Positions 413 to 20,657 of a stretch of DNA of 20,657 bases are shown here, one piece after another (within the stretch, counting starts at the first letter, position 1; the number at the start of each line of letters is the position of its first letter). This stretch comes from a virus. A program made the translations under genes and the position numbers. Under the pieces are notes generated by a model. The model was not told the origin of the DNA. It worked only from the letters and a program-made list of their open reading frames with translations, and made no database searches. The stretch spans positions 1-20,657 of the IMG/VR virus record IMGVR_UViG_3300010430_000536; one strand, 5' to 3'.

Positions 413-610
413 ATGAAAGTTCACTATTTTAACCAAGCAGAATCAGACAAAGACGACCACCTCTTAAACATGGCAAAAATGCAAGGCTATGTACCAAAAG
501 GTTGTTTACTCGGTGGTGGCACTGTTATGACTGTAATCAACGAAGGGGATAACCCTTGTCACGGTTGTGAAGGCCCTAGAAATAAATGTGGCGGTAAACC
601 CAAGAAGTAA
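413..610 (+). CDS. Small Cys-rich hypothetical protein, 65 aa
   Basis: A clear ribosome binding site, AAGAGGA at 398-404, lies 8 nt before the ATG. The product has an unstructured-looking polar N-terminus and a C-terminal cysteine cluster: Cys31, then Cys49-x2-Cys52 and Cys59, in the motif CHGCEGPRNKCGG, followed by a basic tail GKPKK. This resembles a small zinc- or metal-binding knuckle, perhaps for nucleic-acid or protein binding. No characterised family can be named. It is co-directional with the MazG-like and polymerase genes just downstream, suggesting expression with the replication module. Confidence 0.8.
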   Translation: MKVHYFNQAESDKDDHLLNMAKMQGYVPKGCLLGGGTVMTVINEGDNPCHGCEGPRNKCGGKPKK

Positions 611-632
611 TCATGTCGAGAGAACACAATTG

Positions 633-1025
633 ATGAATGAGGTAAATGATTATATGAGTAAATTAAAATCTGGCGTAATAGCACTGGTGAATGAATGTCA
701 TGGTGCGGCTGTAAGGGGTCACTGGTGGCATAATATAGAAACCGGCGAACCTCTAGAACGTAACAAAGGTGAATTACTGTGTCTTATTCACAGTGAAATT
801 AGTGAAGCTATGGAAGGTGCGCGTAAAGGTCGCAATGATGACCATTTACCACATCGACCACAATTAGAAGTTGAATTAGCTGATGCTATGATAAGAATCT
901 GTGATTTTGCTGGTGGGTTTAACCTTGATATTGCTGGCGCTATAGTCGAAAAATTGGAATATAATGCTAAACGTGCCGACCATGACCCGGCTAACAGATT
1001 AAAAGATGGGGGCAAGAAGTTTTGA
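633..1025 (+). CDS. MazG-like nucleoside triphosphate pyrophosphohydrolase
   Basis: A 130-residue all-alpha NTP pyrophosphatase, expected to hydrolyse (d)NTPs to the monophosphate and pyrophosphate, using magnesium. The metal-binding signature of the family is visible: Glu55 and Glu58 in HSEISEAMEGARKG, then Glu81 and Asp84 in ELADAMIRICDFA. The open frame extends back to a GTG at 567 inside the previous gene, but ATG 633 gives a start just after that gene's stop with a GAGA-containing leader; ATG 654, preceded by TGAGG, is a second possibility that would drop 7 residues. In phages, such enzymes adjust the nucleotide pool or alarmones. Its TGA overlaps the polymerase ATG (TGATG), so the two are translationally coupled. 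Confidence 0.88.
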   Translation: MNEVNDYMSKLKSGVIALVNECHGAAVRGHWWHNIETGEPLERNKGELLCLIHSEISEAMEGARKGRNDDHLPHRPQLEVELADAMIRICDFAGGFNLDIAGAIVEKLEYNAKRADHDPANRLKDGGKKF

Positions 1026-3325
1026 TGTTAGGGCGCCGTAAGTGTAGTGATTGTGGTTCGATGTATGAGTATGAATTAACTCATTGTCCTAAGTGTAAAG
1101 CACCTGAATGTTTCAGTGATGTTATACCCTATGATATGCGTGATTGGATATACGACATTGAAACTTACCCCAATGTATTTACGGCATCATTCCTGCACGC
1201 CGCTTGTGGTATTCGTCAACGATTCCAGATAACTCCTTGGGTGAATCAATTACCCCACCTATGCCAATTTCTCAGTATGTTAGCAAAGAACGGTTGTCGT
1301 CTTGTGGGTTTTAACAATGTTGGCTTTGACTACCCTGTTATTCACTACATCATGCAACAGTCAGTTTATGTAAATGTTGAAAGTATCTATCAAAAAGCGG
1401 CTAGTATTATCGACTCAGATTTCAATGATTATAGTCATATCATATGGGATTCTGAAGTCATCATACCCCAGTTAGATTTATATAAAATACACCATTTTGA
1501 CAACAAATCACGGCGCACCGGCTTAAAGATGTTGGAATTCAATATGTGCTCTGATGACATTGAAGATTTACCCTATGAAGCGGGCTTACCTCTCACTGAA
1601 GATCAAGTACCATCATTGATGTATTACAATGACCACGATGTGGACGAAACGTTCAAATTTTACCGTAAATCGATTGATCAGATAGAATTCAGGGAACAAC
1701 TTAGCAACAAGTATGAACGCAATTTCATGAATCATAATGATACTAAGATAGGTAAAGACTATTTCATTATGGAGTTAGAACGACTTATACCCGGTAGTTG
1801 TTATGACTATAGCACTGGTAGAAAACAAGTCAGGCAAACACCCCGTGATATAGTGCAGATTAATGATGTTGTTTTCCCTTATGTACGATTCGAACAACAT
1901 GGTTTTAACCTTATCCTTCAATGGTTGAAAAACTTCTCAATCGCGGAAACCAAAGGTGTGTTTGAATATCTGGATGTTACACCTGAAATGGCGTGGTACA
2001 TGAACCCGGCGTTAATTAAGGTGCATAATCTAACCGTTGCTGATGTACCTCACTTGAAAGATGTGACGAATATTCAAGGCAAGTTACTAAAAGGTTTGCC
2101 ATTAAAAGAATGTAAAGAACAACTACAAGACCGTTCAGATTTACACCGGTTTAGGTTCGTTAGTGGATGCAAGGACCAAAGCGGTTTGAATGTGATTATA
2201 CAGGGTTTCCGTTATGATTTCGGTACCGGCGGTATCCATGGTTCTGTTGAGTCTCAAACAGTACACAGTGATGAAACACATGTGATTTATGATTGGGATG
2301 TTGCCAGCTATTACCCAAACCTTGCTATAGCTAACAGGCTTTACCCTGAACACCTCAGTGAACAGTTCTGTAACATCTACTTAGATGTATATAATCAGCG
2401 TAAACAACACAAGAAGGGTACCGCTGAAAATGCAATGCTGAAGTTAGCGTTGAATGGTGTCTATGGTGATTCTAACAACCAATACAGCCCGTTCTATGAT
2501 TGGTTCTATACAATGCAAGTCACGATTAACGGGCAACTACTACTGTGTATGCTGGCCGAACAACTGATTAATATACCGAATCTTGAGATGGTACAAATAA
2601 ACACAGATGGTCTAACTGTACGTTGTCCACGGGAATACGTCGACCACATGAAAACGGTGTGTAAATGGTGGGAAGATTATACCTGTTTAGAACTTGAATC
2701 AGCTATCTATGAGAAAATGTTCATACGTGATGTTAATAACTATGTGGCGTTATATGAAAATGGTGATGTCAAACGCAAAGGGGCATACGAGTATAAATTA
2801 GACTGGCATCAAAATTTCAGTGCATTGGTGATACCTAAAGCAGTAGAGGCGCATTTAATACACGGGGTACCGGTTGAACAGTTCATTATGAATCACTGTA
2901 ACATTCATGATTTCATGTACAGAACGAAAATTAACCGGTCAGATAGTCTGATGTATGGTGAAGAGAAGCTTCAACGCATCACACGATACTACATAAGCAA
3001 TACAGGCGATAAATTAGTAAAAGTGTCACCGCCGGTAAAAGGTGTTGAAGTAGGTCAGTGGAAACGTAAAAATGGTATCAGTGATGCATTCTATACACAA
3101 GTGTTAGGTGAAATAAGTGGTGGTGACGATCTTGATTCAACGGGTAAACCGTGGGATGAACGTATTAACACAAAGAATAAAAGCAGGTATGAAATCAGGA
3201 GAACCGATATACAGAGTGGTTGTACTGTCACGCCATGTAATGATATTACAACTGCGAACTATGGTGATATTGATTTTGAATATTATGTTGGGCAAGCGTT
3301 GAAACTAATAAATCCTCTACGCTGA
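1025..3325 (+). CDS. Family B DNA polymerase with 3'-5' exonuclease and N-terminal zinc ribbon
   Basis: The 766-residue replicative DNA polymerase of the phage. It opens with a zinc-ribbon-like Cys7-x2-Cys10 ... Cys21-x2-Cys24. The proofreading exonuclease motifs follow: ExoI Asp44/Glu46 (YDIET), ExoII around Asn97-Asp102 (GFNNVGFD), ExoIII Tyr201-x3-Asp205. The polymerase palm has motif A, Asp425 in DVASYYPN; motif B, Lys473 to Gly481 in KLALNGVYG; motif C, Gln524 to Gly529 as QINTDG. The usual family B motif C is YxDTDS; here Asn526 replaces the first Asp, but Asp528, the position essential in RB69 polymerase, is kept. Only 48 residues separate motifs A and B, so there is no room for a phi29-type TPR1 insertion. 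ATG 1025 is preferred over TTG 1022 because it gives the TGATG overlap with the MazG-like gene. Confidence 0.93.
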   Translation: MLGRRKCSDCGSMYEYELTHCPKCKAPECFSDVIPYDMRDWIYDIETYPNVFTASFLHAACGIRQRFQITPWVNQLPHLCQFLSMLAKNGCRLVGFNNVGFDYPVIHYIMQQSVYVNVESIYQKAASIIDSDFNDYSHIIWDSEVIIPQLDLYKIHHFDNKSRRTGLKMLEFNMCSDDIEDLPYEAGLPLTEDQVPSLMYYNDHDVDETFKFYRKSIDQIEFREQLSNKYERNFMNHNDTKIGKDYFIMELERLIPGSCYDYSTGRKQVRQTPRDIVQINDVVFPYVRFEQHGFNLILQWLKNFSIAETKGVFEYLDVTPEMAWYMNPALIKVHNLTVADVPHLKDVTNIQGKLLKGLPLKECKEQLQDRSDLHRFRFVSGCKDQSGLNVIIQGFRYDFGTGGIHGSVESQTVHSDETHVIYDWDVASYYPNLAIANRLYPEHLSEQFCNIYLDVYNQRKQHKKGTAENAMLKLALNGVYGDSNNQYSPFYDWFYTMQVTINGQLLLCMLAEQLINIPNLEMVQINTDGLTVRCPREYVDHMKTVCKWWEDYTCLELESAIYEKMFIRDVNNYVALYENGDVKRKGAYEYKLDWHQNFSALVIPKAVEAHLIHGVPVEQFIMNHCNIHDFMYRTKINRSDSLMYGEEKLQRITRYYISNTGDKLVKVSPPVKGVEVGQWKRKNGISDAFYTQVLGEISGGDDLDSTGKPWDERINTKNKSRYEIRRTDIQSGCTVTPCNDITTANYGDIDFEYYVGQALKLINPLR

Positions 3326-3698: not shown

Positions 3699-4058
3699 TC
3701 ACCAATTACCTCTAGTCCAGCCACCCGCACGCACACCCCAATAATACAAAGTGGACCTCCATCTTGATACACCGCAATCAATTAACATTTGTCTGAACAA
3801 CTCATCGCATTTAGACCTAGTTTCATATTGCATACCATACATGTGATCATGAAATACAGCGGCTTTTCTACTTTTACCAGTGCGACTAAAAAAGGGTCTA
3901 AGAAAAACAGGAATACTGGCTAAATCAGTTTCAGTACCTGCCTCAACTAAGTATGTAAAATCAGAATGAAAATACCAACAATCTTTTAATACGCAGAACC
4001 AACCCGGTTTATCATCTAGCACCCGCAAGTCTAAATCAGTGAATGTACCCACGGTCAT
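3699..4058 (-). CDS. DUF1353 family phage protein
   Basis: A 119-residue protein matching the DUF1353 pattern: TDLASIP at residues 44-50 followed by FLRPFF, a basic stretch, then FHDHMYG (His70-Asp71-His72), a DELFRQML helix and a C-terminal YYWGVRAGG. DUF1353 proteins are common at the tail/lysis end of phage structural operons; their biochemical role is not established. ATG 4058 forms an ATGA overlap with the stop of the preceding gene and has GAGG 8 nt upstream, so it is chosen over GTG 4067. Confidence 0.85.
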   Translation of the reverse strand: MTVGTFTDLDLRVLDDKPGWFCVLKDCWYFHSDFTYLVEAGTETDLASIPVFLRPFFSRTGKSRKAAVFHDHMYGMQYETRSKCDELFRQMLIDCGVSRWRSTLYYWGVRAGGWTRGNW

Positions 4059-4486
4059 AGGTTCCACCTCATTTTATATGCGTACCATAAATCGCGAGGC
4101 GTGACCCTATGTGTTTTCAATCTCATGTTTAAAACACCTGATTTTACCAATGCTTCTGCTACTAATTCAGAACAGAACCATTTGTTGTCATCATTCCATT
4201 TTTTACGTAATGGGATACCTGCTAACGCTGTGAAATCATAGTCCTTACCGATTTGTTTATTCAGCCATGTTTCAGCTAAGTCATTATTACCGTCTACTAT
4301 AATAGTTTCCCTATTTGGGTATCTATCAGCAAATGAATTTAAAGAACATTTTGTGACGCCCTTCTCAATTGTTGATTCGTACACAATGCCGTTGACGTTG
4401 ACGGCGCAATGACTAAAATGACTCAATGTTGCCAGTTTGATAGCCTCTGCTAATATACCGGTTCCTCTACAGAAATAAACTATCAT
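4055..4486 (-). CDS. Permuted papain-like cysteine peptidase/amidase (YiiX type)
   Basis: A 143-residue protein with the His-before-Cys order of the permuted papain-like (YiiX/YaeF, LRAT-related) fold. The candidate catalytic His26 is in SHFSHCAV, followed by a strand ending VYES (Glu37), a GKDYDF element at 80-85, and the candidate nucleophile Cys105 in WFCSELVAEAL. Such enzymes cleave amide or peptide bonds; in phages they are plausible peptidoglycan hydrolases or virion-associated peptidases. No signal peptide is obvious. Its position between tail-fibre genes and the membrane-anchored protein makes it the best endolysin or cell-wall-hydrolase candidate in the window, which is inference. 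ATGA overlap with the gene before it. Confidence 0.75.
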   Translation of the reverse strand: MIVYFCRGTGILAEAIKLATLSHFSHCAVNVNGIVYESTIEKGVTKCSLNSFADRYPNRETIIVDGNNDLAETWLNKQIGKDYDFTALAGIPLRKKWNDDNKWFCSELVAEALVKSGVLNMRLKTHRVTPRDLWYAYKMRWNL

Positions 4487-4890
4487 AACTTTGCCGCCTC
4501 TATGAACGCCTCATCTAACGCGTCACTGTCTAAACCAAGATCAGATGCTAGCATAATCAACTCAGGCCTGTTGCGCTCATATTCAGTTGAGTCATCCCAA
4601 AACGATTGCATTAATAATCTCTGTACATCATCGTCTATCACATCAATCAACGGTTGAACATGTTGATATAATCCTAGTATTATCAAGTGCTGTCTTGCCT
4701 GCCGTTTCGTGATACTGAATGGCACAAGGGGTGCAGGCGCTTCAGGTTTTACAAATTCATCTCCTGATTCAACCCATCCAATTTGGGCTATATTGTTGAT
4801 TATCCAGCCATTTTTCAATGCTGTTTCTGTATCAGATTTGACACGATTAATAACCACGCCGTCTTTAACGATTATTGCAAAATCTACCAT
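4483..4890 (-). CDS. Tail-fibre-associated small protein
   Basis: A 135-residue protein lying directly after the fibre gene and overlapping its end. The N-terminal half reads as a small beta domain ([15 protein letters not shown]). The C-terminal half, from about residue 58, has a helical pattern often found at the end of phage fibre or fibre-accessory proteins: [17 protein letters not shown], a [16 protein letters not shown] segment and a terminal [12 protein letters not shown] role in fibre assembly or as a tail accessory is inferred from position. ATG 4890 has GAGGG 7 nt upstream and is preferred to GTG 4896. Confidence 0.75.
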
Positions 4891-6035
4891 TGCCACACCC
4901 TCGCTCTACCATCACCGCCATCACCAGCATCACCAGCACCATTTAATGTTGTTGAGCCGCCAGCGCCACCAGGGACATCACCATCACCACCAGCAACACC
5001 ATTACCACCATTACCACCATCACCACCATATACTGATGTCCCACCAGGGCTACCACCGTTTGAACCGCCGCCGCCAGCACCACCGTAAATTGTATTACCA
5101 GCTTCACCAGAAACCCCAGCAGCGCCCCTACCTGCAATTGGATTCAACACCTGTGTACGTTGAATTTCAGCCGAAGTCCCCGTTATTCTACGGTTAACAG
5201 ACCCATCGTTGACTTTTATGTAGATATCACCTGAATCATTTTCACCACCCCATCCACCAGCAGCAGTTAACAATGATCCAAATGATGTATCCCCACCATC
5301 AACACCATCACCTGTACCAGCATTAACACCACCTGCACCTATCGTCACAGTCTCAGATGCAGCTAAATCACTAGCGTTGAATATACCAGTAACAAAAAGA
5401 CCGCCTGATCCACCGCTAGCATATGTACTAGTTTTTGTAGCACCGCTACCACCACCCCCAACCAGCTCTACACGCACAAAATTTGCACTAGGGTCTTTTG
5501 TGAAAGAACCAGATGTTAGAAATTCCTCGTATATGTATACCGATCTACCAGATAACACCCACTCAGGATCAACGCCGGGTTCTTTTGTTGTGACATCTGC
5601 TAAATTAGTCACTAGATTCCAGTATGTACCGCTGTGTAAAACTTGGTATGGGATATTAGCTGCACCCGTTTGGTCTGCCCAGTTTCCCTTGAAATTAGCT
5701 GAACTTTCTGCATTATCAGCTGCTACTTCAGCTCTATCAGCTTCTGTCTCAGCTCTATCAGCTTCTGTCTCAGCTCTATCAGCTTCTGTTGTTGCTAATG
5801 CGACTTGTGCAGCGCCGTTGTCAGTAGCATCGATGGCTGATTGTGCAGCAGCAGCGGCTTCAGTCTCAGCTATAACAGCATTGTCATATACATTAGTAGC
5901 TAAATCATTGGCTTCGTCAGTCCACGGTGTTAATGCGGCAACATGTGCATCAGCTTTCGTGACAAAAGTATCCGGGTCATCCTGTCGCTGTGGCGCATCT
6001 GGTAATGGGCTGATAGGGGTTGGTGTGGTCGCCAT
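4884..6035 (-). CDS. Tail fibre protein with coiled coil and glycine-rich tip
   Basis: A 383-residue fibre. Residues 1-60 resemble the N-terminal attachment region of many phage fibres ([14 protein letters not shown]). An Ala/Glu-rich helical stretch follows, with three exact TEADRAE heptads at 83-103, a trimeric coiled coil by pattern. Residues about 115-162 look like a small carbohydrate-binding module (FKGNW ... TYWNLV ... PEWVL). From about 187 to the end is a glycine-rich domain ([12 protein letters not shown] at the start, RARVWQW at the end), as in glycine-rich receptor-binding tips of phage adhesins. It probably contacts the host surface. The start overlaps the preceding TAA (TAATG). 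Confidence 0.88.
5728..5790. repeat. Three tandem 21-bp repeats encoding coiled-coil heptads
   Basis: Units at 5728-5748, 5749-5769 and 5770-5790; the first two are identical and the third differs only at its last base. Each unit encodes one TEADRAE heptad of the fibre on the minus strand. Near-identity at the DNA level suggests recent duplication by slippage or recombination and allows shaft-length variation in steps of one heptad. Confidence 0.95.
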
Positions 6036-12100: not shown

Positions 12101-12826
12101 TTACACGGCTGGTAATATTGTTGCCACATCTAACACAGCTGGGGCGCTTTCTGTAGGTCCGACAACCGTTAACGTCACGGTATCAGCAACAATGTAACCC
12201 GTCCCTGTATTAGTCACGGTAGCCGCTGTAACAGCCCCTGCAACTAATGTGACCTCAAACTCAGCACGTTTACCATCACCGCTAGTAGACGCCTGTGTTG
12301 CCGGGAACACTCCATCGGTTAGACCTGTGAATGTACCACCATCATTGATAGTTGCGGTTAACACACCTGTATTCAACAATCTAATGATATCATTGCAGAT
12401 ACTAGCGGACACCGTTGAACTGACTACTGACTCAGCAGTACCGTCAGCTTCAGTAAAACTCAACACCTTAGCTGTGAAATACGTTATGTTTCCATTCTGA
12501 TATGTCAGTTCAAACGAGACAGCCGTATAAATATCATTGTATTCAATCAATGCAGCTTGCCCATCATTAGACAAATCACGACCTAGTTGTATATCACGAT
12601 TACCCTGTGAAAACGTAGTTTTTAGCGTTTCAACTTCAGCTGTCTCAAGCGGTGAATGATCGGTACTATTCCATGCCTTACCACCTTCACCTGCATCAAC
12701 AACTTGTGCAACTGTAATCCAGTCACTGAGAGCTTGAAACCCCACAACGTCATGAGTAGCGGGTAGAGTAGGGCTAACCCGGATTCTCATGCCTGATGCG
12801 GTTATTACATTACTTTCCGTAGACAT
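12101..12826 (-). CDS. Major tail (tube) protein
   Basis: A 241-residue protein in the tail tube position, just before the chaperone genes. Residues about 1-150 look like a tube domain (alternating strands, MRIRVSPTLPATHDV near the start, YTAVSFELTYQNGN in the middle). Residues about 155-225 form a separate small beta domain with INDGGTFTGLTDGVFPAT, a GAVTAATVTNTGTGY segment and DTVTLTV, a pattern seen as an add-on in phage virion proteins; it is probably displayed on the tube surface. GGAGG lies 8 nt before ATG 12826, so this start is chosen over an in-frame start at 12847 inside the preceding gene. It is probably the most highly expressed tail gene, with a terminator following. Confidence 0.87.
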   Translation of the reverse strand: MSTESNVITASGMRIRVSPTLPATHDVVGFQALSDWITVAQVVDAGEGGKAWNSTDHSPLETAEVETLKTTFSQGNRDIQLGRDLSNDGQAALIEYNDIYTAVSFELTYQNGNITYFTAKVLSFTEADGTAESVVSSTVSASICNDIIRLLNTGVLTATINDGGTFTGLTDGVFPATQASTSGDGKRAEFEVTLVAGAVTAATVTNTGTGYIVADTVTLTVVGPTESAPAVLDVATILPAV

Positions 12827-12840
12827 AGCGCCTACCTCCG

Positions 12841-13230
12841 TTAGCAAAAATTAATATAAGGTATGGAGACTGGCGTTATCTGCCAACCACCATCAAAAAA
12901 AGAAGACGCAACACTACCGGGCGCTTCTATTCTCACACCGTCAAGTTGTAGGTTTCTAGGAAATCCATCCAATATCACTTGTGCAATATCTGATGATAAT
13001 ATTTCACCCTTGCCTTTCTTGACGAACACAGACACCTGAAAAATGCCTGCTTCCTTGTCGGTAGATACCTGATCAACCGCTAAGGTGGTGCTAGGTAAGA
13101 CAGTCACAACTAAATGACTATCATTTGGTACATCTGCCTCAATGTTAGAATAGTAAACATCAACACCAGCAGGTAAAACCAAACTGTTCAACTGTTCAAT
13201 CAATGAGGTTTTGATCTGACTAAGTGGCAT
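12841..13230 (-). CDS. Tail terminator protein (DUF4128/gpU-like)
   Basis: A 129-residue protein whose pattern fits the tail terminator family: an N-terminal helix (SQIKTSLIEQLNSL), a strand with VDVYYSNIEADVP, a HLVVTVLPSTT strand, then GIFQVSVFVKKGKGE and a helix leading to ILDGFPRNL. These proteins cap the tail tube and join it to the neck. Its position, immediately before the tail tube gene and after the gp10-like protein, is the usual one. It overlaps the preceding gene by 11 nt. The ribosome binding site is weak, suggesting translational coupling. Confidence 0.8.
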   Translation of the reverse strand: MPLSQIKTSLIEQLNSLVLPAGVDVYYSNIEADVPNDSHLVVTVLPSTTLAVDQVSTDKEAGIFQVSVFVKKGKGEILSSDIAQVILDGFPRNLQLDGVRIEAPGSVASSFFDGGWQITPVSIPYINFC

Positions 13231-13681: not shown

Positions 13682-14016
13682 TACACCCTACCCTGTACAA
13701 CATACATGAATGGGTCATCACCCGGCATGACATCATCCACGCTCATAATTTCGTATTCAACACCCTTGTCAACTATCTTACCCTTCTTGTCAATCACAAT
13801 GTCAGATATGATAGCGAATTCAGTGTCGTTACTCGTGATTATTGAACCATCGCGTTCACTGGCATCAAAATCAAACTCTATCAGATATATATCTGTATCA
13901 ACAGGTGTTTGTGTTGGGTTATAGTCAGGACCAGAATTTACGAAAGTTCTATAGGTGGCGATTCTACCACCACGTTTAATCAATTGTTTGATTCTAGTTG
14001 CGAAACCATCAAACAT
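13681..14016 (-). CDS. Probable head closure / neck protein
   Basis: A 111-residue protein located between the connector-like gene and the gp10-like gene, where head closure proteins are usually found. The N-terminus is a short helix (MFDGFATRIKQLIKR) followed by a beta-rich body with YRTFVNSGPDYNPTQTPVDT and a strand IYLIEFDFDAS. No diagnostic motif is seen, so the role rests on position and size. ATG 14016 overlaps the preceding TAA (TAATG) and has AGGG upstream, so it is preferred to GTG 14025. Confidence 0.72.
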   Translation of the reverse strand: MFDGFATRIKQLIKRGGRIATYRTFVNSGPDYNPTQTPVDTDIYLIEFDFDASERDGSIITSNDTEFAIISDIVIDKKGKIVDKGVEYEIMSVDDVMPGDDPFMYVVQGRV

Positions 14017-14399
14017 TACATACACCCTGGAAAATTGATACTCAATGGCATCTTACCAATCTGTGATAAACAACCGCCTGACATCATGTTCGCAGTCTGA
14101 CCGAATGATGTACTCATGATATCATTACCTGTTGCTTTCGGTGTTAAATACTCAACTGAATATTTACCGCGCAACGACTCTTTTGATATTGTAGCACTCG
14201 ATTGACCCACGGTTGATGTGACTAACAGATGTGATGTGATATATATATGTATCTGATCAACACATTCTTCTGTCATCTCAGCTGTACAACTGGTGATTTG
14301 AGCCATTATACAACTAGCTGCAATAATAAATGGCGTGATAGCATTGTCTTCCAGTTCACTACCTGTGATATCACGCACCTTCTCAGGGCATATCGACAT
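14016..14399 (-). CDS. Head-tail connector (DUF4054/gp6-like)
   Basis: A 127-residue, mostly helical protein. After ITPFIIAASCIMAQIT and a Cys-rich helix comes a HLLVTS segment, a Ser/Gly stretch and RGKYSVEYLTPK; the order 'helix, HxL, G.vs.sy' matches the DUF4054 / HK97 gp6-type adaptor family, which sits under the portal. It has six cysteines, unusual compared with neighbours. ATG 14399 has GAAGGAG 10 nt upstream; TTG 14408 would be too close to that site and is rejected. Confidence 0.68.
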   Translation of the reverse strand: MSICPEKVRDITGSELEDNAITPFIIAASCIMAQITSCTAEMTEECVDQIHIYITSHLLVTSTVGQSSATISKESLRGKYSVEYLTPKATGNDIMSTSFGQTANMMSGGCLSQIGKMPLSINFPGCM

Positions 14400-14400
14400 A

Positions 14401-14835
14401 TCAAACAAACTCCTTCGGTACTCTGTAATACATCACAGTGACTAATATATCACCGTCATTAGTCACGGCGTTAATCCATCGTCCAACAGGAACAATAAGA
14501 TTCAATCCAATGTATGAAACATTTGACGATCTGATTAACTGTGGTGCAACGATACCTTTAATCACAGTTAATGAATCTGGGCCATCGGATTCATATATTA
14601 GTATATCAGCCGGTGTTGTATTACTGACATTTTTATCGGCATTGACTATTATACCAGTGATCACAATGGATTCACCGGTTGATGGAGTCAGCATGTTGAA
14701 CGCAACATTATTGGCAGTTAATCTTTCTAATACTGGTTCACTATATGCTAATGGCGCAGTGACCAATTGACCGTATTTAGTCACTTTAGCGCGTACATCG
14801 TCATGTTCACCTGTAATTTTAACATTTAACGACAT
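14401..14835 (-). CDS. Beta-rich virion protein, probable head/neck decoration
   Basis: A 144-residue beta-rich protein with the pattern KYGQLVTAPLAYSEPVLERL near residues 20-40, then FNMLTP, a SIVITGIIVNADKNV strand pair, ILIYESD and GLNLIVPVGRWINAVTNDGD. I recognise this as a type found in phage structural clusters but know no established function. It is the last of the island of beta-rich genes before the connector gene, so a decoration or fibre role on the head or neck is inferred. TAATG overlap with the gene before it. Confidence 0.7.
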   Translation of the reverse strand: MSLNVKITGEHDDVRAKVTKYGQLVTAPLAYSEPVLERLTANNVAFNMLTPSTGESIVITGIIVNADKNVSNTTPADILIYESDGPDSLTVIKGIVAPQLIRSSNVSYIGLNLIVPVGRWINAVTNDGDILVTVMYYRVPKEFV

Positions 14836-15374
14836 TACAGTAACCCATCAACAATTGATATCAAACCTTCAACTGTTACCGCCGCTGAACTTCTGAATGC
14901 TATGGCTTTACCCTGTGGGACAATGATATTTGATGTTGTTTTCAGATTGTTTCGCGCGTTAGCTGTTGATATTTTTTCGAAGAACAGTACACCCTCTGAT
15001 GTTAAACCTGTGATGTTCTCATCAGAACTAACATCAGCGGTTAACGTTTTTGGACTACCTAGGTTTCTATTAACTGTGATTATTGGTGACTCGCTTGAAT
15101 AGACCGGCGTACCTGATACCTCTTCGTAATATAGTGTAGTTGGTGCTGATGCCGATACTCTAAAGTCAGTGAAGAAAATGTCAGTAATACCGTTATTCTT
15201 GAAATAAAAGAAATAATCATCAGTACCAGCTACAGCGACAGAGAAGTAAGCACTATGCATCCCACCATCCTTATTCAACTGCTTGTCTTCAGGTTCTGAA
15301 ACTGCAAACGCTGTGAGTCTTCCACAATCATCAACTACAACTATTTTACCGTCTGGTCCTCTTATATCAGCCAT
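14835..15374 (-). CDS. Beta-rich virion protein, paralogue of the next upstream gene
   Basis: A 179-residue protein. The N-terminus has GPDGKIVVVDDCGRLTAFAV followed by SEPED, which lines up with the same region of the 197-residue protein encoded just before it (DGNTAIVDDSGRLTTKAV). Both continue with strands ending in a Phe/Tyr-x-KNN element (YFKNNGITDIF here). The rest is beta-rich and ends with VPQGKAIAFRSSAAVTVEG. Probably a duplicated head or neck decoration/fibre protein; no enzyme motif is seen. Confidence 0.72.
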   Translation of the reverse strand: MADIRGPDGKIVVVDDCGRLTAFAVSEPEDKQLNKDGGMHSAYFSVAVAGTDDYFFYFKNNGITDIFFTDFRVSASAPTTLYYEEVSGTPVYSSESPIITVNRNLGSPKTLTADVSSDENITGLTSEGVLFFEKISTANARNNLKTTSNIIVPQGKAIAFRSSAAVTVEGLISIVDGLL

Positions 15375-15968
15375 TTAAACACCCTCCGTGTCTCTATATG
15401 CTAATGCGTTAACTTTAACATTCATTGATGTGTTACCTGTGGGTGGTGTCACTGAAAATGATATTGATGTGCCGGGTGGGAATACTATCGGACCCGTAGA
15501 AAAAGGAAACGTGGCCTGATCATTAGTAATCAAAGCGGGGAAAAAACTAACACCACCGGTAGCAGTAGCGCCCTCACTACCTGATTTAATCGTTGCGGGT
15601 AATATATTTGCAGCGCCGATATTCAAATTAACAGCAACACCGTCATCACCGTTTAATATAGTACCGCCTGTAGGCGCTAATGTAACCTGCGTCTGAAAAT
15701 CACCACCATCGCCATCAGTAGATTTACCGAACGTAACAGTTACACTTTCTAATATCCAATCAACAATATCATTATTTTTAGCGTAAAAAACCACTGATTC
15801 ATTATCTGATGTGAGAGTAATAAGTTCATGTATGATTAAAAAAGCCTCACCAGCTTTCGCACGCTCGATACTCTCAGATTGTGTAACAGCTTTAGTAGTG
15901 AGTCTTCCACTATCATCAACTATAGCTGTGTTACCGTCCTTACCTGATTTTATTACACCGCCTGTCAT
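15375..15968 (-). CDS. Beta-rich virion protein (paralogue pair member)
   Basis: A 197-residue protein related at its N-terminus to the product of the gene that follows it (DGNTAIVDDSGRLTTKAV, then FYAKNNDIVDWILESVTVTFG). The C-terminal half has GPIVFPPGTSISFSVTPP and GNTSMNVKVNALAY, patterns found in beta-sandwich phage structural proteins. Stop and next start are directly adjacent (TAA ATG). It starts with an ATGA overlap to a 57-residue gene. A decoration or fibre role is inferred from position. Confidence 0.72.
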   Translation of the reverse strand: MTGGVIKSGKDGNTAIVDDSGRLTTKAVTQSESIERAKAGEAFLIIHELITLTSDNESVVFYAKNNDIVDWILESVTVTFGKSTDGDGGDFQTQVTLAPTGGTILNGDDGVAVNLNIGAANILPATIKSGSEGATATGGVSFFPALITNDQATFPFSTGPIVFPPGTSISFSVTPPTGNTSMNVKVNALAYRDTEGV

Positions 15969-16138
15969 ATCAAGTCATCCTCATTAATACCTGTGTTAAA
16001 TGCCTCTTCGACTCTAGCATTTAATAATTGTAGTTGACATACCAATTCACTCAACAAAGATGTTATATATTCAATTGATGTTGACTCATCTTCTGATGAT
16101 TCGATCAATCCAGTCTCAATATATGGTATCCACGCCAT
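15965..16138 (-). CDS. Small acidic helical protein, 57 aa
   Basis: A short gene filling the only sizeable gap in this part of the operon. ATG 16138 has GAGG upstream, and its TGA overlaps the next ATG (ATGA), the same coupling used by its neighbours. The product starts MAWIPYIETG, is acidic (ESSEDESTSIEY) and has a helical stretch with ITSLLSELVCQLQLLNARVEE that could be a coiled coil. No family is recognised. Tight packing and overlap on one side strongly favour a real gene. Confidence 0.75.
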   Translation of the reverse strand: MAWIPYIETGLIESSEDESTSIEYITSLLSELVCQLQLLNARVEEAFNTGINEDDLI

Positions 16139-16141
16139 CAG

Positions 16142-16420
16142 TCACACCTCTAACACTGCTAGTAAACCCGCTGCATTGAGGCAGTAGGCCCATGCACCAA
16201 CATCGCCTTCTTCATTTCTAAACCATTGGCCGGTGCTACGCTGTAAAACACAATACGCTGTCAATTCCTCAGATGGTTCAAATCTAGACGACGATAGATA
16301 TACATCAGTTACCCCGATATTCTGAACAGCGATTACAGTACCCACGGGTAATTCACTGGCATCATATAGATTAATCCATGTATTATGAGGTATAGGTATA
16401 TTTGGTTCAGTGTCAGGCAT
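16142..16420 (-). CDS. Small beta-rich virion protein
   Basis: A 92-residue protein with IPHNTWINLYDASELPVGTV near the N-terminus and strands IAVQNIGVTDVYLSSS and WAYCLNAAGLLAVLEV at the end. The pattern 'tW..ly..s..pvGt.i..qN.g...v.l' is typical of small beta-sandwich proteins found among phage structural genes; no function is established. ATG 16420 overlaps the TGA of the gene before it (TGATG) and is preferred to TTG 16426. Confidence 0.72.
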   Translation of the reverse strand: MPDTEPNIPIPHNTWINLYDASELPVGTVIAVQNIGVTDVYLSSSRFEPSEELTAYCVLQRSTGQWFRNEEGDVGAWAYCLNAAGLLAVLEV

Positions 16421-16698
16421 CAGCAAGACTCCACGAAGTTCATTAGAAATGATTCTTCACGACCAGCAACAGTTACCACGTCAACTTGTACAGTACCGCT
16501 AGTACCCTCCACCCAGACAGTAACACTAGTATCATCATTCGTATCTGAATCAACAGTAACATCCACTGGCGTTAGCGTGTATGAACTAATAGTGTCGCCG
16601 TTCGTCAACCATGGTCCACCGTCAGATGTTGATGCATTTAGGTCTAATTTATAATCCAACCTCGAAACATCATTTTTATAGAAGATACGCGTTTGCAT
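16420..16698 (-). CDS. Ig-like beta-sandwich protein (fibre adaptor-like)
   Basis: A 92-residue protein with a phage Ig-like sandwich pattern: LDYKLDLNAS, a short loop, then GDTISSYTLTPVDVTV, VTVWVEGTSGTVQVDVVTVA and GREESFLMNF. The order 'dY.lD ... GDtI.sy ... t.vtvw.eGg.sg ... vTv.GReE' is seen in small phage proteins proposed to link fibres to the virion. Role inferred from pattern and place. Confidence 0.7.
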   Translation of the reverse strand: MQTRIFYKNDVSRLDYKLDLNASTSDGGPWLTNGDTISSYTLTPVDVTVDSDTNDDTSVTVWVEGTSGTVQVDVVTVAGREESFLMNFVESC

Positions 16699-16702
16699 GA
16701 TA

Positions 16703-17263
16703 TTACACGCTAGCAGCTGTTAATGTCACCGTGACCTGTAATGTATCACCATCATCTAGTGATTTATCACCCGCTGAAAAAGCCGCCGCACCGTATAGTG
16801 TACCAGTACTACCACCTTTGGTATTATTAGTGGTCACGAAGCCACCACCAATCACTGTTGTATCCGCATTTATACTAAATGTTGCTTTAGATGCGGAATT
16901 GTCAACTGATTGACTCGCAACACTACCGAGCGTCAAAGTTTGCCTGACTGCTTCGGAATATGCCGTAACTTCAACCCACCCCACGTGCGACGACATCGTG
17001 TCACCGGCTGCAATAGTAGGTGTTCCATCAGTCAAACCCACGAAAAAACCAGCCGTGTATGCCGATCCCTTGAAATATTTATCTAATACATCATCAAGAC
17101 CTACATTAACCACTGTATTATGGTTGGTTTCAGACCATTTTAAATCACCTTGATCAACCCGTTCCAATGGTGTGAGTGAACCCCATTCTTCTACACTAAT
17201 ATGATCAGGTTTAGAATAACAATCAAATTGATAAATCGATGACACGCCTATACTTTCTCTCAT
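16703..17263 (-). CDS. Phage structural protein, probable fibre or decoration
   Basis: A 186-residue protein with a conserved phage pattern: LDDVLDKYFKGSAYTAGFFV, GLTDGTPTIAAGDTMSSHVGW, a YSEAVRQTLTLG segment, NSASKATFSIN and a C-terminal GDTLQVTVTLTA. This combination occurs in uncharacterised proteins of phage structural clusters. Mostly beta, with no transmembrane or catalytic features. ATG 17263 has AAGG about 10 nt upstream; GTG 17272 would overlap the previous stop but lies too close to that site. Confidence 0.75.
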   Translation of the reverse strand: MRESIGVSSIYQFDCYSKPDHISVEEWGSLTPLERVDQGDLKWSETNHNTVVNVGLDDVLDKYFKGSAYTAGFFVGLTDGTPTIAAGDTMSSHVGWVEVTAYSEAVRQTLTLGSVASQSVDNSASKATFSINADTTVIGGGFVTTNNTKGGSTGTLYGAAAFSAGDKSLDDGDTLQVTVTLTAASV

Positions 17264-17268
17264 TGTGT

Positions 17269-18744
17269 TCACACCTTGAATATTCTGTCGTCAGCTTTGA
17301 CGCTGAATGATCTTAAATCAATTTTAACATTAAACACCCTATCATCAGGTGTAATAATACCAAATATAATACTTTGAGCGGTGGTTGTCACGGATACAAC
17401 CTGATTCAATGATAAACCGGCTTGCGCAGCGGCTTGCGCAAATACCACCATCCCAACCTGCGCACCTAAATTCAGACTAGCATCAGCTTGCGCAGCGGCA
17501 TTGATATCAGCGGCTAGTACACTACCAAGCGTAACGCTACCATCTAATACAGCAACTATTGTATTAGCTAATGAATTAGATAACCCCAGTGACATAGCCG
17601 CTGATATTGTTTGACCGGCTGTGACAATACTCACACCGAGTTCATTATCAAACAATACTGATGCTACTGAATTAGCTAATGCTGATATTGTTTGATCTAA
17701 CTCGACACCAACAGCAATAGCACCCGTGGCAGTAGAAACCCCTGTGAAAGCATCACCAAACCCATTATCGAAAGATATGTCTACATCAAACGCAATAATA
17801 CCAGCAAGTTCGTAACCTAATTGTTTAGCTAAAGAAACAGCACCTGCAGCTTGTGCTATACCACCGTCATCACATGAGACGCCGCTTGATAATTGTATAG
17901 CAGTATTGAAAGTGGCGTTAGCGACATCAGTTATATTATTTGATAACCCTAGTGACATAGCCACATCGACGATAGTGCCGCCAGCGGGTGTAATGAAACC
18001 GAACATCGGCGTGATTGGTTTTACTAACTGATATGGATCACGCGAGAGTGATAGTTTAGCGGCGTCTGTTGGGTCATTCTCGAACACAAATAAACTATAG
18101 AATAACCCTATCCAACCTGATCCACCTATTGTAATAGCACGTTCGTTAGTGTCATTCGTTGTCGCTCCTCCTGTACCGCTGTAGTGTTTCCTATCACCCA
18201 CGGCAACGGATGCACCAACATCCAAATCCCACCCGAAAACTACAACACTGGCTTGTTGTAGTTCTGCATTAGATAATACTTTAGGTGATGCTAGTGTGCT
18301 GATTGTAGTACCGAAACCACCTCTAGTAGTCGCCTGCCAATTTCTACCCGATGAGAACCCATTATACTGCAATTGCAAAGCTTCGCCTGATCCTGACCAG
18401 TTCAGGAGAAATCTAGACGCGCCTGTACTATATGGTGCCGTACACCTAGCATGTGCAACAATACATCCCGATTCAATCACATGTTGGAATGTTCCCAAAT
18501 TACCATCGTTGTTGATATATATACCGTTTGGGTCAATCTTGCCAGTTGAACTAGGTGATGTTGAGGTATGACGTTTACCAGTAACTATATCGACTGCTTC
18601 GTTTGGGCTGATAGCTATGATTGCATTTTTAAGTTTACCCAACTTAGATACAGCGTTGTAATCAACTTCTACCGGTACATTAGGTTTGACACCGGTACGG
18701 TAGAAGTCGGGGTGTAGCTGTTTAGGTAGCGGGTAAAATGGCAT
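17269..18744 (-). CDS. LamG/concanavalin-like lectin domain protein with five C-terminal repeats
   Basis: A 491-residue protein. Residues about 40-245 look like a LamG-type concanavalin sandwich of the phage kind: ASRFLLNWSGSGEALQLQY, VVVFGWDLDVGASV, IGLFYSLFVFEND and the closing LSRDPYQLVKPI. Residues about 262-460 hold five degenerate repeats starting near 262, 302, 344, 383 and 422, each beginning like AMSLGLS or AVSLAK and Ala/Val/Leu/Ser-rich. The C-terminus has three short DDRVFNV-like units. Sugar binding and surface display are inferred. AGGA lies about 8 nt before the ATG. Confidence 0.78.
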   Translation of the reverse strand: MPFYPLPKQLHPDFYRTGVKPNVPVEVDYNAVSKLGKLKNAIIAISPNEAVDIVTGKRHTSTSPSSTGKIDPNGIYINNDGNLGTFQHVIESGCIVAHARCTAPYSTGASRFLLNWSGSGEALQLQYNGFSSGRNWQATTRGGFGTTISTLASPKVLSNAELQQASVVVFGWDLDVGASVAVGDRKHYSGTGGATTNDTNERAITIGGSGWIGLFYSLFVFENDPTDAAKLSLSRDPYQLVKPITPMFGFITPAGGTIVDVAMSLGLSNNITDVANATFNTAIQLSSGVSCDDGGIAQAAGAVSLAKQLGYELAGIIAFDVDISFDNGFGDAFTGVSTATGAIAVGVELDQTISALANSVASVLFDNELGVSIVTAGQTISAAMSLGLSNSLANTIVAVLDGSVTLGSVLAADINAAAQADASLNLGAQVGMVVFAQAAAQAGLSLNQVVSVTTTAQSIIFGIITPDDRVFNVKIDLRSFSVKADDRIFKV

Positions 18745-18747
18745 TGT

Positions 18748-19209
18748 TTATCCTGCAAATGAATGTGGGCGCCAATAGAGTGTATTAGCTGATGCTGCTA
18801 GGGTCACACCTGATACATTACGTACACCAACCTTCCATTTACCCGGTGGGATTGCAATACGTTCTTTGGTTATCTTCTGCGCTTCTGTAGCACCGGTTGT
18901 AGTCATCGAGAATGCGAAATACTGTTCGTTTTGCTGTTCGTCAGTTGTTACGTTACCAGTCCAGTCCGGATAGTTAGTACCGTCAACACTAGGTATTAAA
19001 TAAACTATGACAGTCGACCCAACACCTGTAAACGCCGCTGAACCTAATTCTAAATAGAAGTCAGCCATCACATATTTATTAGTTGAATTATCTATTTCAT
19101 CACTGAGGTTGGTCCATTCATTATTAGTTAATGAATCGAGTGTTTGTGTACCAGAAAATGAAACTGAAGCCGCTGACGCTTGATACCCCGTTGAAGTTAA
19201 ATCAGCCAT
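18748..19209 (-). CDS. Beta-sandwich phage structural protein
   Basis: A 153-residue protein rich in Thr, Ser and Asn. Visible elements: LDSLTNNEWTNLSDEIDNST near residues 24-43, a strand YVMADFYLELGSAAF, VIVYLIPSVDGTNYPDW and RIAIPPGKWKVGVRNVSG. This looks like a single beta-sandwich, found in uncharacterised phage virion proteins next to capsid genes. It begins at a TAATG overlap. Decoration of the head is the likely role by position, unproven. Confidence 0.75.
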   Translation of the reverse strand: MADLTSTGYQASAASVSFSGTQTLDSLTNNEWTNLSDEIDNSTNKYVMADFYLELGSAAFTGVGSTVIVYLIPSVDGTNYPDWTGNVTTDEQQNEQYFAFSMTTTGATEAQKITKERIAIPPGKWKVGVRNVSGVTLAASANTLYWRPHSFAG

Positions 19210-19616
19210 TAGATTTTACCCTCAATTCTTAAACGCCTAGCTTTTTGTAAATCCGACAGTGTTAAACCTGGAAATTTAGGTTCATGACCTAATGCTATGA
19301 TAGCGTTTCTCTGATCCGTTGTTATATATTCGGAAATTTCCAAACTTTCAAGTGTCGATTGCGTGTCAGCGTGATTAACATCTATACCATGACCCTCAAT
19401 CCATCTAATTATACGACTAGGTAATACACCATCTGACACGGCTTGTTCGATAGCTGTCATGATTGCAACACCTCGGATCAATCCTAAATCGTTAGCAATA
19501 GATTGATCTGTCAATAAACGTTGACCGTTTCCATGTGTCATTTCAGATGACATAGCGTTGAAAGCATCATCGACAGCACCACCAGGGTCATTATCGGCTA
19601 TTTGTTTCAGGTTCAT
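19209..19616 (-). CDS. Hypothetical helical protein in the head cluster
   Basis: A 135-residue, mostly helical protein and the first gene after the hairpin that follows the capsid region. It has AFNAMSSEMTHGNGQRLL, a long helix GLIRGVAIMTAIEQAVSDGV, GIDVNHADTQSTLESLE and a C-terminal DLQKARRLRIEGKI. No named family is recognised. It differs from the beta-rich genes that follow and may be a small head or packaging accessory. GAGG lies 8 nt before the ATG. Confidence 0.72.
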   Translation of the reverse strand: MNLKQIADNDPGGAVDDAFNAMSSEMTHGNGQRLLTDQSIANDLGLIRGVAIMTAIEQAVSDGVLPSRIIRWIEGHGIDVNHADTQSTLESLEISEYITTDQRNAIIALGHEPKFPGLTLSDLQKARRLRIEGKI

Positions 19617-19634: not shown

Positions 19635-19660
19635 AAGATAGCCCCTTCAGGGGCTATTTT
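19635..19660 (-). terminator. Strong hairpin after the capsid genes, terminator/attenuator
   Basis: ATAGCCCC (19638-19645) and GGGGCTAT (19650-19657) form an 8-bp perfect stem with a 4-nt loop; two A-T pairs and one G-T pair can extend it. On the plus strand it is followed by TTTTA; on the minus strand, the coding direction, by the T-rich TATCTTCTTG, which is less ideal. It could act in either direction and reduce expression beyond the capsid genes, or stabilise the capsid mRNA 3' end. Confidence 0.7.
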
Positions 19661-19662
19661 AC

Positions 19663-19887
19663 TTACTTGCCTGCTTTCTTCGTTGTTTCAGATGCAACAA
19701 CTGTTTCAGGTGGTACATACAATCTCAATTTACCCTTCAGAGATTGTCTGATTTCACCATCTTCACCAAGCACCTGTTTGTCAGTCAACAATATATGTGA
19801 CCCAACTTTCAGCCTTTTTAACCCACCGTTCACTGACATACTCAGTTTAGGGTGTAAAACTTCATAACGTTTTGATTCATTAGCCAT
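19663..19887 (-). CDS. Small head-associated protein, 74 aa
   Basis: A 74-residue protein directly after the major capsid gene, with AAGGA upstream of ATG 19887. The frame is open far upstream, but those codons overlap the capsid gene and are not the real N-terminus. The product begins MANESKRYEVLHPKLSMSV and is Lys-rich, with LKVGSHILLTDKQVLGEDGE and a C-terminal LRLYVPPETV. Small proteins of this size and place often sit with the head, but no family is certain. Confidence 0.72.
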   Translation of the reverse strand: MANESKRYEVLHPKLSMSVNGGLKRLKVGSHILLTDKQVLGEDGEIRQSLKGKLRLYVPPETVVASETTKKAGK

Positions 19888-19891
19888 GATA

Positions 19892-20657
19892 TTATTCCTT
19901 CGCACTAAATGAGCAAGTATTGCCATTAAAATCATCGCGGAATTGGAAACCAATACCGGCTGCGGTAATGAACGAATAGTCGCTGTTATACATCGGGCGT
20001 GGTAATGCAATTGTACTAGTTGCCATACCAACCAACGGTTTAACATCCTCACCGTCAAGAGGGTATCCCGCAATTTCATTACCAGATAGATCAGAGGTAG
20101 GTTTAATTTCCTTGATACCTCTCAGTCCCGCAAGCCTTTGCAACACGTCTTTCGATGCGTATGACTCAGATGATGCACGTTCAATGTTAGATGCTACCTC
20201 TAAACTAACATACCACGTTAGCTCCTTACCGCATTTATTAGTAATCCACATTGTATCCCGGATTTGTTTAGCAGCGGCCTCAATTTCAAGGTAGGTTTTA
20301 GTTGTATCAGTGAAATCGAAATTAACCCCGCCAGCACCTAAATCGATTTGCTCAACGTGGGAATCGTTACGTAAACCCTCCCATGACAAACCATCAACAA
20401 CGATGAAATTACCATCAGCGTCTTTATGACCTTCTAGTAAATCAAGCTGAATATGTCGTCTAAATGTCAACAATGTTTCACGCTGATCATCTATGATTGC
20501 GTCATAACCTTCTGATGTACCCGCTGCAACTTCACGCCAGTCACGAGCAAAGCCGATATCATGCATTGGAATGATAGAACCATCGTAAGACTTTTCAGTG
20601 TTATCCATCTTAACGCCTGTTCTACCAGACATCGAAGTCTGCGCGCGTCCTGCATCA
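19892..20657 (-). CDS. Major capsid protein (5' truncated by window edge)
   Basis: About 255 C-terminal residues are present; the frame is open past ATG 20632 (codons reading DAGRARQTS precede it) to the edge, so the true start lies outside. The pattern matches a phage major capsid family: SGRTGVKMDNTEKSYDGSII, PMHDIGFARDWRE, GYDAIIDDQRETLLTFRRHI, LSWEGLRNDSHVEQIDLGAG, LRGIKEIKPTSDLSGNEIAG, PLVGMATSTIALPRP and a final GIGFQFRDDFNG. It forms the icosahedral shell, presumably with an HK97-type fold; the fold is family inference. It is first in the visible operon, so portal and terminase genes are expected to the right. Confidence 0.85.
   Translation of the reverse strand, partial: DAGRAQTSMSGRTGVKMDNTEKSYDGSIIPMHDIGFARDWREVAAGTSEGYDAIIDDQRETLLTFRRHIQLDLLEGHKDADGNFIVVDGLSWEGLRNDSHVEQIDLGAGGVNFDFTDTTKTYLEIEAAAKQIRDTMWITNKCGKELTWYVSLEVASNIERASSESYASKDVLQRLAGLRGIKEIKPTSDLSGNEIAGYPLDGEDVKPLVGMATSTIALPRPMYNSDYSFITAAGIGFQFRDDFNGNTCSFSAKE

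Follow-up and report, generated by a model that had tools for sequence, protein, structure and literature searches.

A ten-gene island between the capsid and connector genes of an uncultured bacterial virus joins two separately inherited cassettes of candidate virion-appendage genes

Introduction

The described systems that come closest to the subject of this study, an island of ten genes between the capsid gene and the connector genes in a 20,657-base fragment of an uncultured bacterial-virus record (IMG/VR record IMGVR_UViG_3300010430_000536; this whole stretch is called the window), are a fibre of the Ralstonia podophage GP4 and an optional gene module of the Alishewanella siphophage LSH1. 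Siphoviruses mostly have only a few genes in this place. An earlier note on the window, made from its sequence alone, remarked on that contrast and read the island as one poorly described fibre or decoration system of the head or neck.

In the short-tailed phage GP4, the complex of Fiber I and the fiber-tail adaptor has been solved (PDB 8JOU), and the adaptor is represented in Pfam by PF23148 (“Podophage GP4 fiber-tail adaptor protein gp77”). A passage of the DEV paper describes 15 fibre N-termini as a collar on the 12-fold ring of the head-tail adaptor, as in GP4 (PMC10925440). The LSH1 module, reported in June 2026, is an extra one in which gp34 is the payload, gp35 resembles 8JOU_g in HHpred, and gp36 has an immunoglobulin (Ig) fold (PMC13243795). 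It occurs in about half of the relatives of LSH1, its products were found in virions by mass spectrometry (MS), and in the authors’ working model the Ig protein carries the fibril and the fibril carries the payload (PMC13243795).

A candidate functional analogue is found in the neck fibres of cyanophage A-1(L) (gp80–gp82, 15-fold ring), which bear a distal module of the carbohydrate-binding type; this module did not bind the Anabaena material tested (PMC10966104). The proposed likeness is one of working principle, and the genes for these fibres are placed at a distance from the other structural genes of A-1(L).

Results

The island comprises two independent cassettes

Ten open reading frames (ORFs) run end to end on the minus strand from position 14401 to position 19616, with overlaps or gaps of a few bases each, which bears out the earlier note’s count of ten genes over about 5.2 kb between capsid and connectors. 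We named them g1 to g10 starting at the capsid side; the gene after the capsid gene is called gB, and the phrog_302 gene, which closes the island in the relatives compared, is called n1 (Table 1). Homologues occur elsewhere for nine of the ten genes (g2–g10), while g1 has a positional counterpart only. A search with the island at the DNA level gave no match in 50,697 phage records.

Gene orders in related loci (numbered with the prefix L) divide the island in two. L003 reads capsid, gB, a 131-residue gene, a 151-residue gene, g3, g4, g5 and n1, and it has none of g6–g10. Conversely, L092 and L095 read capsid, gB, g6, g7, g8, g8, g10 and n1, and the partial locus L084 reads g6, g8, g9, g10 and n1, all without g1–g5. 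Since each gene set thus occurs without the other, the two are separately inherited, and the island consists of two independent cassettes rather than a single system. The window carries both in series: cassette A comprises g1–g5 (16420–19616) and cassette B comprises g6–g10 (14401–16426). The recurring core of cassette A is g3-g4-g5, an order shared by the window, L003, L004, L006, L010 and L012 and absent from many capsid relatives. Another form of cassette B, in L070, L073, L074 and L085, has g8 together with a g6 to which g7 is fused (a protein of 137–146 residues).

The earlier note had proposed a search for the same gene set in other phages; the relatives turn out to carry A or B separately (L003 as against L092 and L084). 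Its notion of a head or neck appendage system is supported insofar as candidate appendage genes travel with head and neck genes and cassette B is independent of tail type (see below), but not insofar as it supposed one system.

Cassette A resembles the GP4 fibre and its adaptor

The Ig-like adaptor named in the earlier note is real. The product of g5 scores 40.6 bits against PF23148 (cut-off 27) and matches PDB 8jou_D with an expectation value (E) of 9e-4. Its neighbour g4 matches PDB 26la_U (E 5e-12 as a single sequence, 2.1e-53 as a family profile); the aligned stretch of 26la_U, 139 residues long, agrees residue for residue with a protein shared by Pseudomonas phage KPP25 and its close relatives. 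The AlphaFold2 model built for g4 (predicted local distance difference test, pLDDT, 80.6; predicted template-modelling score, pTM, 0.79) mixes helices and strands. The top fold match of this model among 350,542 PDB chains is 8jou_a, from the GP4 Fiber I/fiber-tail-adaptor complex (E 3.4e-3, probability 0.96). Thus, g5 by sequence and the adjacent g4 by fold both point to the same solved complex.

The likeness to GP4 has its bounds: GP4 is short-tailed, whereas the window belongs to a long-tailed phage that has the cassette between capsid and connector and adds a repeat fibre, g3. LSH1, which we compared by its published description, shares the order payload, fibril, Ig protein and the optional occurrence among relatives. 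The LSH1 module, however, has its place after the lysis genes and carries a lyase-like beta-helix domain as payload. With g3-g4-g5 resembling both the GP4 Fiber I/adaptor and LSH1 gp34–gp36, cassette A is of a kind recently described. Cassette B is uncharacterised and is the interesting part of the island.

Association of g4 with an adaptor gene extends beyond these loci. In 11 of 16 scanned g4 loci, bacterial genomes included, the gene after g4 encodes a Gp77 adaptor; as the 16 were picked to span near and distant relatives, this fraction should not be taken as unbiased. In L010 the adaptor gene lies somewhat further downstream. The bacterial assemblies in which a Gp77-type adaptor follows g4 (L106, L107, L110 and L118) come from Omnitrophota, Alphaproteobacteria, Chloroflexi and, for L118, Haliea salexigens, and these loci are presumably proviruses. 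Moreover, g4 is found alongside unrelated capsid families (SU10_MCP in Vibrio phage ABTNL-3, Phage_capsid_3 in KPP25), and a homologue occurs in the archaeal virus MetMV; the connector, at least, is thus a portable part. KPP25-type Pseudomonas podophages (PDB 26la, 44nx) have a phrog_8123 homologue of g4 over most of its length, called a “structural protein”, but their capsid belongs to another family and the gene downstream in KPP25 (phrog_3758) is not a Gp77 adaptor.

These relationships bear on the idea that the island holds moron-like cargo, genes that the host cell expresses or that are simply carried along, with products that are not virion parts. Such cargo would account for the variability and optional nature of the island and for the terminator-like hairpin in front of it. 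The relatives of g4 and g5, however, are solved virion proteins, the LSH1 products and those of the phiPLPE genes that neighbour g6 (described below) were found in virions by MS, and the island genes are densely packed within a run of structural genes. We consider the cargo idea very improbable.

The third member of the core, g3, is built from a variable N-terminal head, 20-residue repeats and a conserved C-terminus. Its C-terminal half has a period of 20 residues, with signals at lags 20 and 40 that exceed the 95th percentile of shuffled sequences, and the counterparts in L003, L004 and L006 show this period too. The last 45 residues, with their repeated R-x-F/I motifs, are common to L003, L004, L006, L010 and L012 (z scores of 5 to 24). 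The first 250 residues, by contrast, are similar only to those of L003, with z scores of about 0 in L004, L006, L010 and L012. A constant C-terminus beside a constant connector gene, combined with a swapped head, fits docking through the C-terminus and exposure of the head.

The earlier note had called g3 a lectin-like repeat protein; the repeats are real, and the lectin part is plausible only. No Pfam family, lectins included, matched the g3 head even at an E of 10, and for this reason we do not claim a lectin identity. The positional counterpart in L012 matched Laminin_G_3 at 1.1e-5, just under the cut-off. By sequence, g3 has no relative in the PDB.

The two remaining genes of cassette A are less conserved. 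A gene at the position of g2 in L003 (7982–8437) is weakly similar to it (E 0.002), and so is a gene in L027 (9072–9554; E 2e-6) that lies near another g4 gene; tblastn searches of phage records with g2, g8 and g10 gave no match. For g1, no sequence relative was found. We rejected the proposition that it is shared with L003 by sequence, as the similarity to the 131-residue L003 gene in the same place is undetectable; g1 is possibly an assembly helper. The earlier note’s description of nearly all products as beta-sandwiches was slightly overstated, given that g1 and g7 appear helical on inspection by eye and that g4 is mixed in its model.

Cassette B links a recurrent domain to jelly-roll paralogues

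Relatives of g6, a member of phrog_4770, were gathered from capsid-anchored loci and by tblastn. The domain is a free 94-residue protein in the window, and in L070-type phages it is joined to a g7-like helix. Judged by eye, g7 matches the C-terminus of the 137–146-residue g6 proteins of L070, L073, L074 and L085, and a g7 homologue follows g6 in L092 (E 6e-9). In L054, L063, L066, L067, L068 and L076, g6 is the N-terminal domain of proteins of 360–574 residues that are encoded next to the capsid gene and whose remainders differ from one another; the remainder in L068 matches a virion protein of the “head and packaging” category, phrog_1645.

Homologues of g6 also lie one or two genes after a related capsid gene (PF09950 family) in cultured Vibrio phages and in Iodobacter phage phiPLPE, and there too a variable island precedes the connectors. 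In phiPLPE, two tandem copies of g6 come first, and after them lie genes for a putative acylhydrolase and for two proteins that carry an annotation as MS-confirmed virion components. These myophages differ from the window in their contractile tail, and phiPLPE has its acylhydrolase and other virion proteins where the window has jelly-roll paralogues. A match of g6 to ThreeFoil, a beta-trefoil protein (E 0.005 over 30 residues), was not used, as no stretch passed alone.

The paralogous pair noticed earlier is real as well: g8 and g9 match each other in BLASTP (E 1e-10, 28% identity). An orthologue of g9 is present in L084 (E 7e-43), and g10 has orthologues in L084, L091/L092 and L089 (E 8e-24 or better), its N-terminal 70 residues matching the g8 family by profile comparison. 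The relatives of g8 and g10 came from viral contigs, and a separate scan with g10 returned a near-identical contig as the only match.

In its AlphaFold2 model (pLDDT 88.5, pTM 0.80), g8 folds into a jelly roll that bears an N-terminal hairpin, and it is similar to many uncharacterised phage proteins, with template-modelling (TM) scores of up to 0.83. No close solved phage protein was found for it, the fold matches in the PDB having TM scores of about 0.3. Among these, picornavirus-type coat proteins and the short-fibre domain of A-1(L) were set aside as generic jelly-roll resemblance. A sequence search of the PDB gave no match for g8, none that was credible for g10, and a weak partial one for g6. 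Genes of the g8 type also form tandem arrays of up to four: in L086 (3–6546) and L093 (1–4793), four paralogues come after a very long gene (at least 1199 residues in L086) and a gene of 68–75 residues.

The tails of the phages that carry cassette B differ. L092 encodes a tail sheath (phrog_165, E 4.5e-51), and the window, L070 and L085 encode a major tail protein of the siphophage type. That the cassette occupies the same slot in contractile- and non-contractile-tailed relatives is the leading argument for attachment to the head or neck. It also speaks to the alternative that both cassettes encode tail-tip or side-tail fibres, with genes merely relocated beside the head genes and a position that is uninformative. 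Appendage genes do move, as illustrated by the place of the similar LSH1 module and by g4 in podophages, which sits among tail-fibre and tail genes. Yet the place and gene order of cassette B are constant across sheath-bearing and sheathless relatives, the otherwise ordinary tail region of the window already has its own fibre gene (4884–6035), and the same passage of the DEV paper reports attachment of the GP4 Gp77 type as a collar near the head-tail adaptor. Tail-tip homologues, which the earlier note had said would count against a head or neck system, were looked for: none of g1–g10 has a PHROG tail-tip match, and the island is on the head side of the connectors. All told, tail fibres appear an improbable explanation.

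The capsid-connector gap varies widely in this capsid clade

Spacing was compared in 22 other loci that contain both the capsid gene and n1, a few of them near-duplicates. The distance between the two genes ranges from 218 to 6157 bp. Seven relatives are island-free (361 bp or less), most carry one to five genes in the gap, and only L048 (5735 bp) and L074 (6157 bp) exceed the roughly 5.5 kb of the window. From this range, an island is a normal feature of the capsid clade, with contents that differ greatly among relatives; a large spacing is unusual yet not unique. The statement that most siphoviruses have few genes here is fair in general, but L048 and L074 show that comparable islands exist within the clade. 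In L048, which is Vibrio phage 1.122.A, the 5.7-kb stretch in the slot consists in part of an HNH endonuclease gene (13883–14557) at the end of the island, a possible means of gene gain and loss at this site.

Cassette B is missing from 7 of the 22 relatives, whose capsid proteins are related, and is thus unnecessary for the shell. This weakens the proposal that its products are plain capsid decoration (cement) proteins, which stabilise the shell and have no adhesive role, and so does the fusion of g6 to large, divergent domains in several relatives, a pattern more like that of an appendage anchor. A post-capsid position, small beta proteins and a jelly-roll fold would suit decoration proteins, and tandem paralogues could fill different lattice sites. 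Weighing both, we deem pure decoration rather unlikely.

Feature coordinates and surrounding genes

Table 1. Features of the island and its borders in the window, listed from the capsid side.
Feature	Coordinates	Strand	Length (residues)	Assignment	Basis
Major capsid protein	19892..20656	-		C-terminal part, cut by window end	PF19774 DUF6260, E 3.6e-74; phrog_771, E 1.2e-76
gB	19663..19875	-	70		After capsid gene in most relatives
Hairpin	19638..19657	-		Terminator-like, between gB and island	Pattern scan; fold z -2.2
g1	19209..19616	-	135	Cassette A; helical-looking	Position only
g2	18748..19209	-	153	Cassette A; beta-rich small virion-type protein	Weak similarity to L003 and L027 genes
g3	17269..18744	-	491	Cassette A; candidate fibre/payload	Repeats; conserved C-terminal R-x-F motif
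g4	16703..17272	-	189	Cassette A; candidate connector (fibril) protein	phrog_8123, E 2.7e-31
g5	16420..16698	-	92	Cassette A; Ig-like fibre-to-virion adaptor, GP4 gp77 family	PF23148
g6	16142..16426	-	94	Cassette B; proposed head-anchoring domain	phrog_4770, E 1.3e-12
g7	15965..16138	-	57	Cassette B; helical tail, detached from fused g6-g7	C-terminal match to longer g6 proteins
g8	15375..15968	-	197	Cassette B; single jelly roll with N-terminal hairpin arm	AlphaFold2 model
g9	14835..15374	-	179	Cassette B; g8 paralogue	BLASTP
g10	14401..14835	-	144	Cassette B; has g8/g9 N-terminal arm motif	Orthologues; profile match
n1	14016..14408	-		Head-tail adaptor candidate, proposed collar docking site	phrog_302, E 2.3e-5

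The part of the capsid protein that lies in the window can be aligned with annotated major capsid proteins, and homologues of gB are found immediately after the capsid gene in L056, L062, L063, L066, L070, L092 and others. The hairpin between gB and g1 could keep island expression below that of the capsid gene; the pattern scan that detected it gave 5 sites against 3.7 expected, which is weak as a set.

Downstream of the island lie the phrog_302 gene and the genes for a head-closure protein (Hc1), Neck1, a tail terminator, the major tail protein and a 1412-residue tape measure. The major tail protein (12101–12847, minus strand) carries additional C-terminal sequence that weakly matches virion PHROGs, the baseplate wedge among them, and that may form a further surface domain on the tail tube. 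A 143-residue tail-region gene (4055–4486, minus strand) matches phrog_1128 (E 5e-26), whose label is that of an enoyl-CoA hydratase-like moron; this tail-region family is possibly mislabelled. At the far end, genes of the replication type lie on the plus strand (413–3325), one for a DNA polymerase (phrog_1252, E 1.4e-191) and one for a pyrophosphatase-like protein (phrog_5658); structural and replication genes thus converge.

Discussion

We lean towards the view that, in this capsid clade, virion-appendage genes can optionally dock in the stretch between capsid and connector, with cassette A of the window specifying a GP4-type fibre and cassette B a head or neck appendage. Cassette A would build a side fibre like the “Fiber I” of GP4. 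Ig-like g5 subunits would sit as a collar on the ring of the head-tail adaptor n1, each anchoring one g4 fibril, and g3 would plug into g4 by its conserved C-terminus. This would leave the variable N-terminal head of g3 outermost, where it would meet the host or surrounding polymers. By our analysis, the order g5-g4-g3 and the docking of g3 through its C-terminus would follow from the GP4 and LSH1 precedents and from the domain swapping seen among relatives. A collar on n1 is proposed because a head-tail adaptor is present in long-tailed phages and g5 adjoins n1 in L003.

Cassette B would specify an appendage bound to the head or neck, a location suggested by its independence of tail type. The g6 domain would serve as the anchor, and g8, g9 and perhaps g10 may assemble into at least one surface knob or short fibre; in other phages, larger domains are joined directly to g6. 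The presence of the products in virions, the direction of the fibre, the anchoring by g6 and any adhesive function are elements of this model that we infer.

Several observations weigh against this view. The GP4 fibre is found on a podophage tail, and its placement on a siphophage neck is an extrapolation. For LSH1, the authors found no docking site and could not model the attachment (PMC13243795). The fold match of g4 to 8jou_a is modest (TM 0.35–0.45, 0.45 by target), and the sequence profile search with g4 did not retrieve 8jou; for these reasons, we state the g4 link as a resemblance. Finally, the loci that hold the g8-type arrays of L086 and L093 showed no capsid gene of this clade, and the link of the jelly rolls to the head is therefore not a strict one.

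More tentatively, phrog_4770 might be a general capsid- or neck-anchoring domain with interchangeable payloads, either fused to it or supplied as tandem jelly-roll paralogues that have an N-terminal arm in common. By this possible account, phages of different tails would shuffle surface structures at a single slot, and in the window such a structure would be combined with a GP4-type neck fibre.

If the favoured view is true, two phrogs of “unknown function” would gain roles, phrog_8123 as a fibre connector and phrog_4770 as an anchor, and the docking of GP4-type Ig adaptors on long-tailed phages would become a testable question. The stretch between capsid and connector would then be a predictable spot for surface appendages in this capsid clade.

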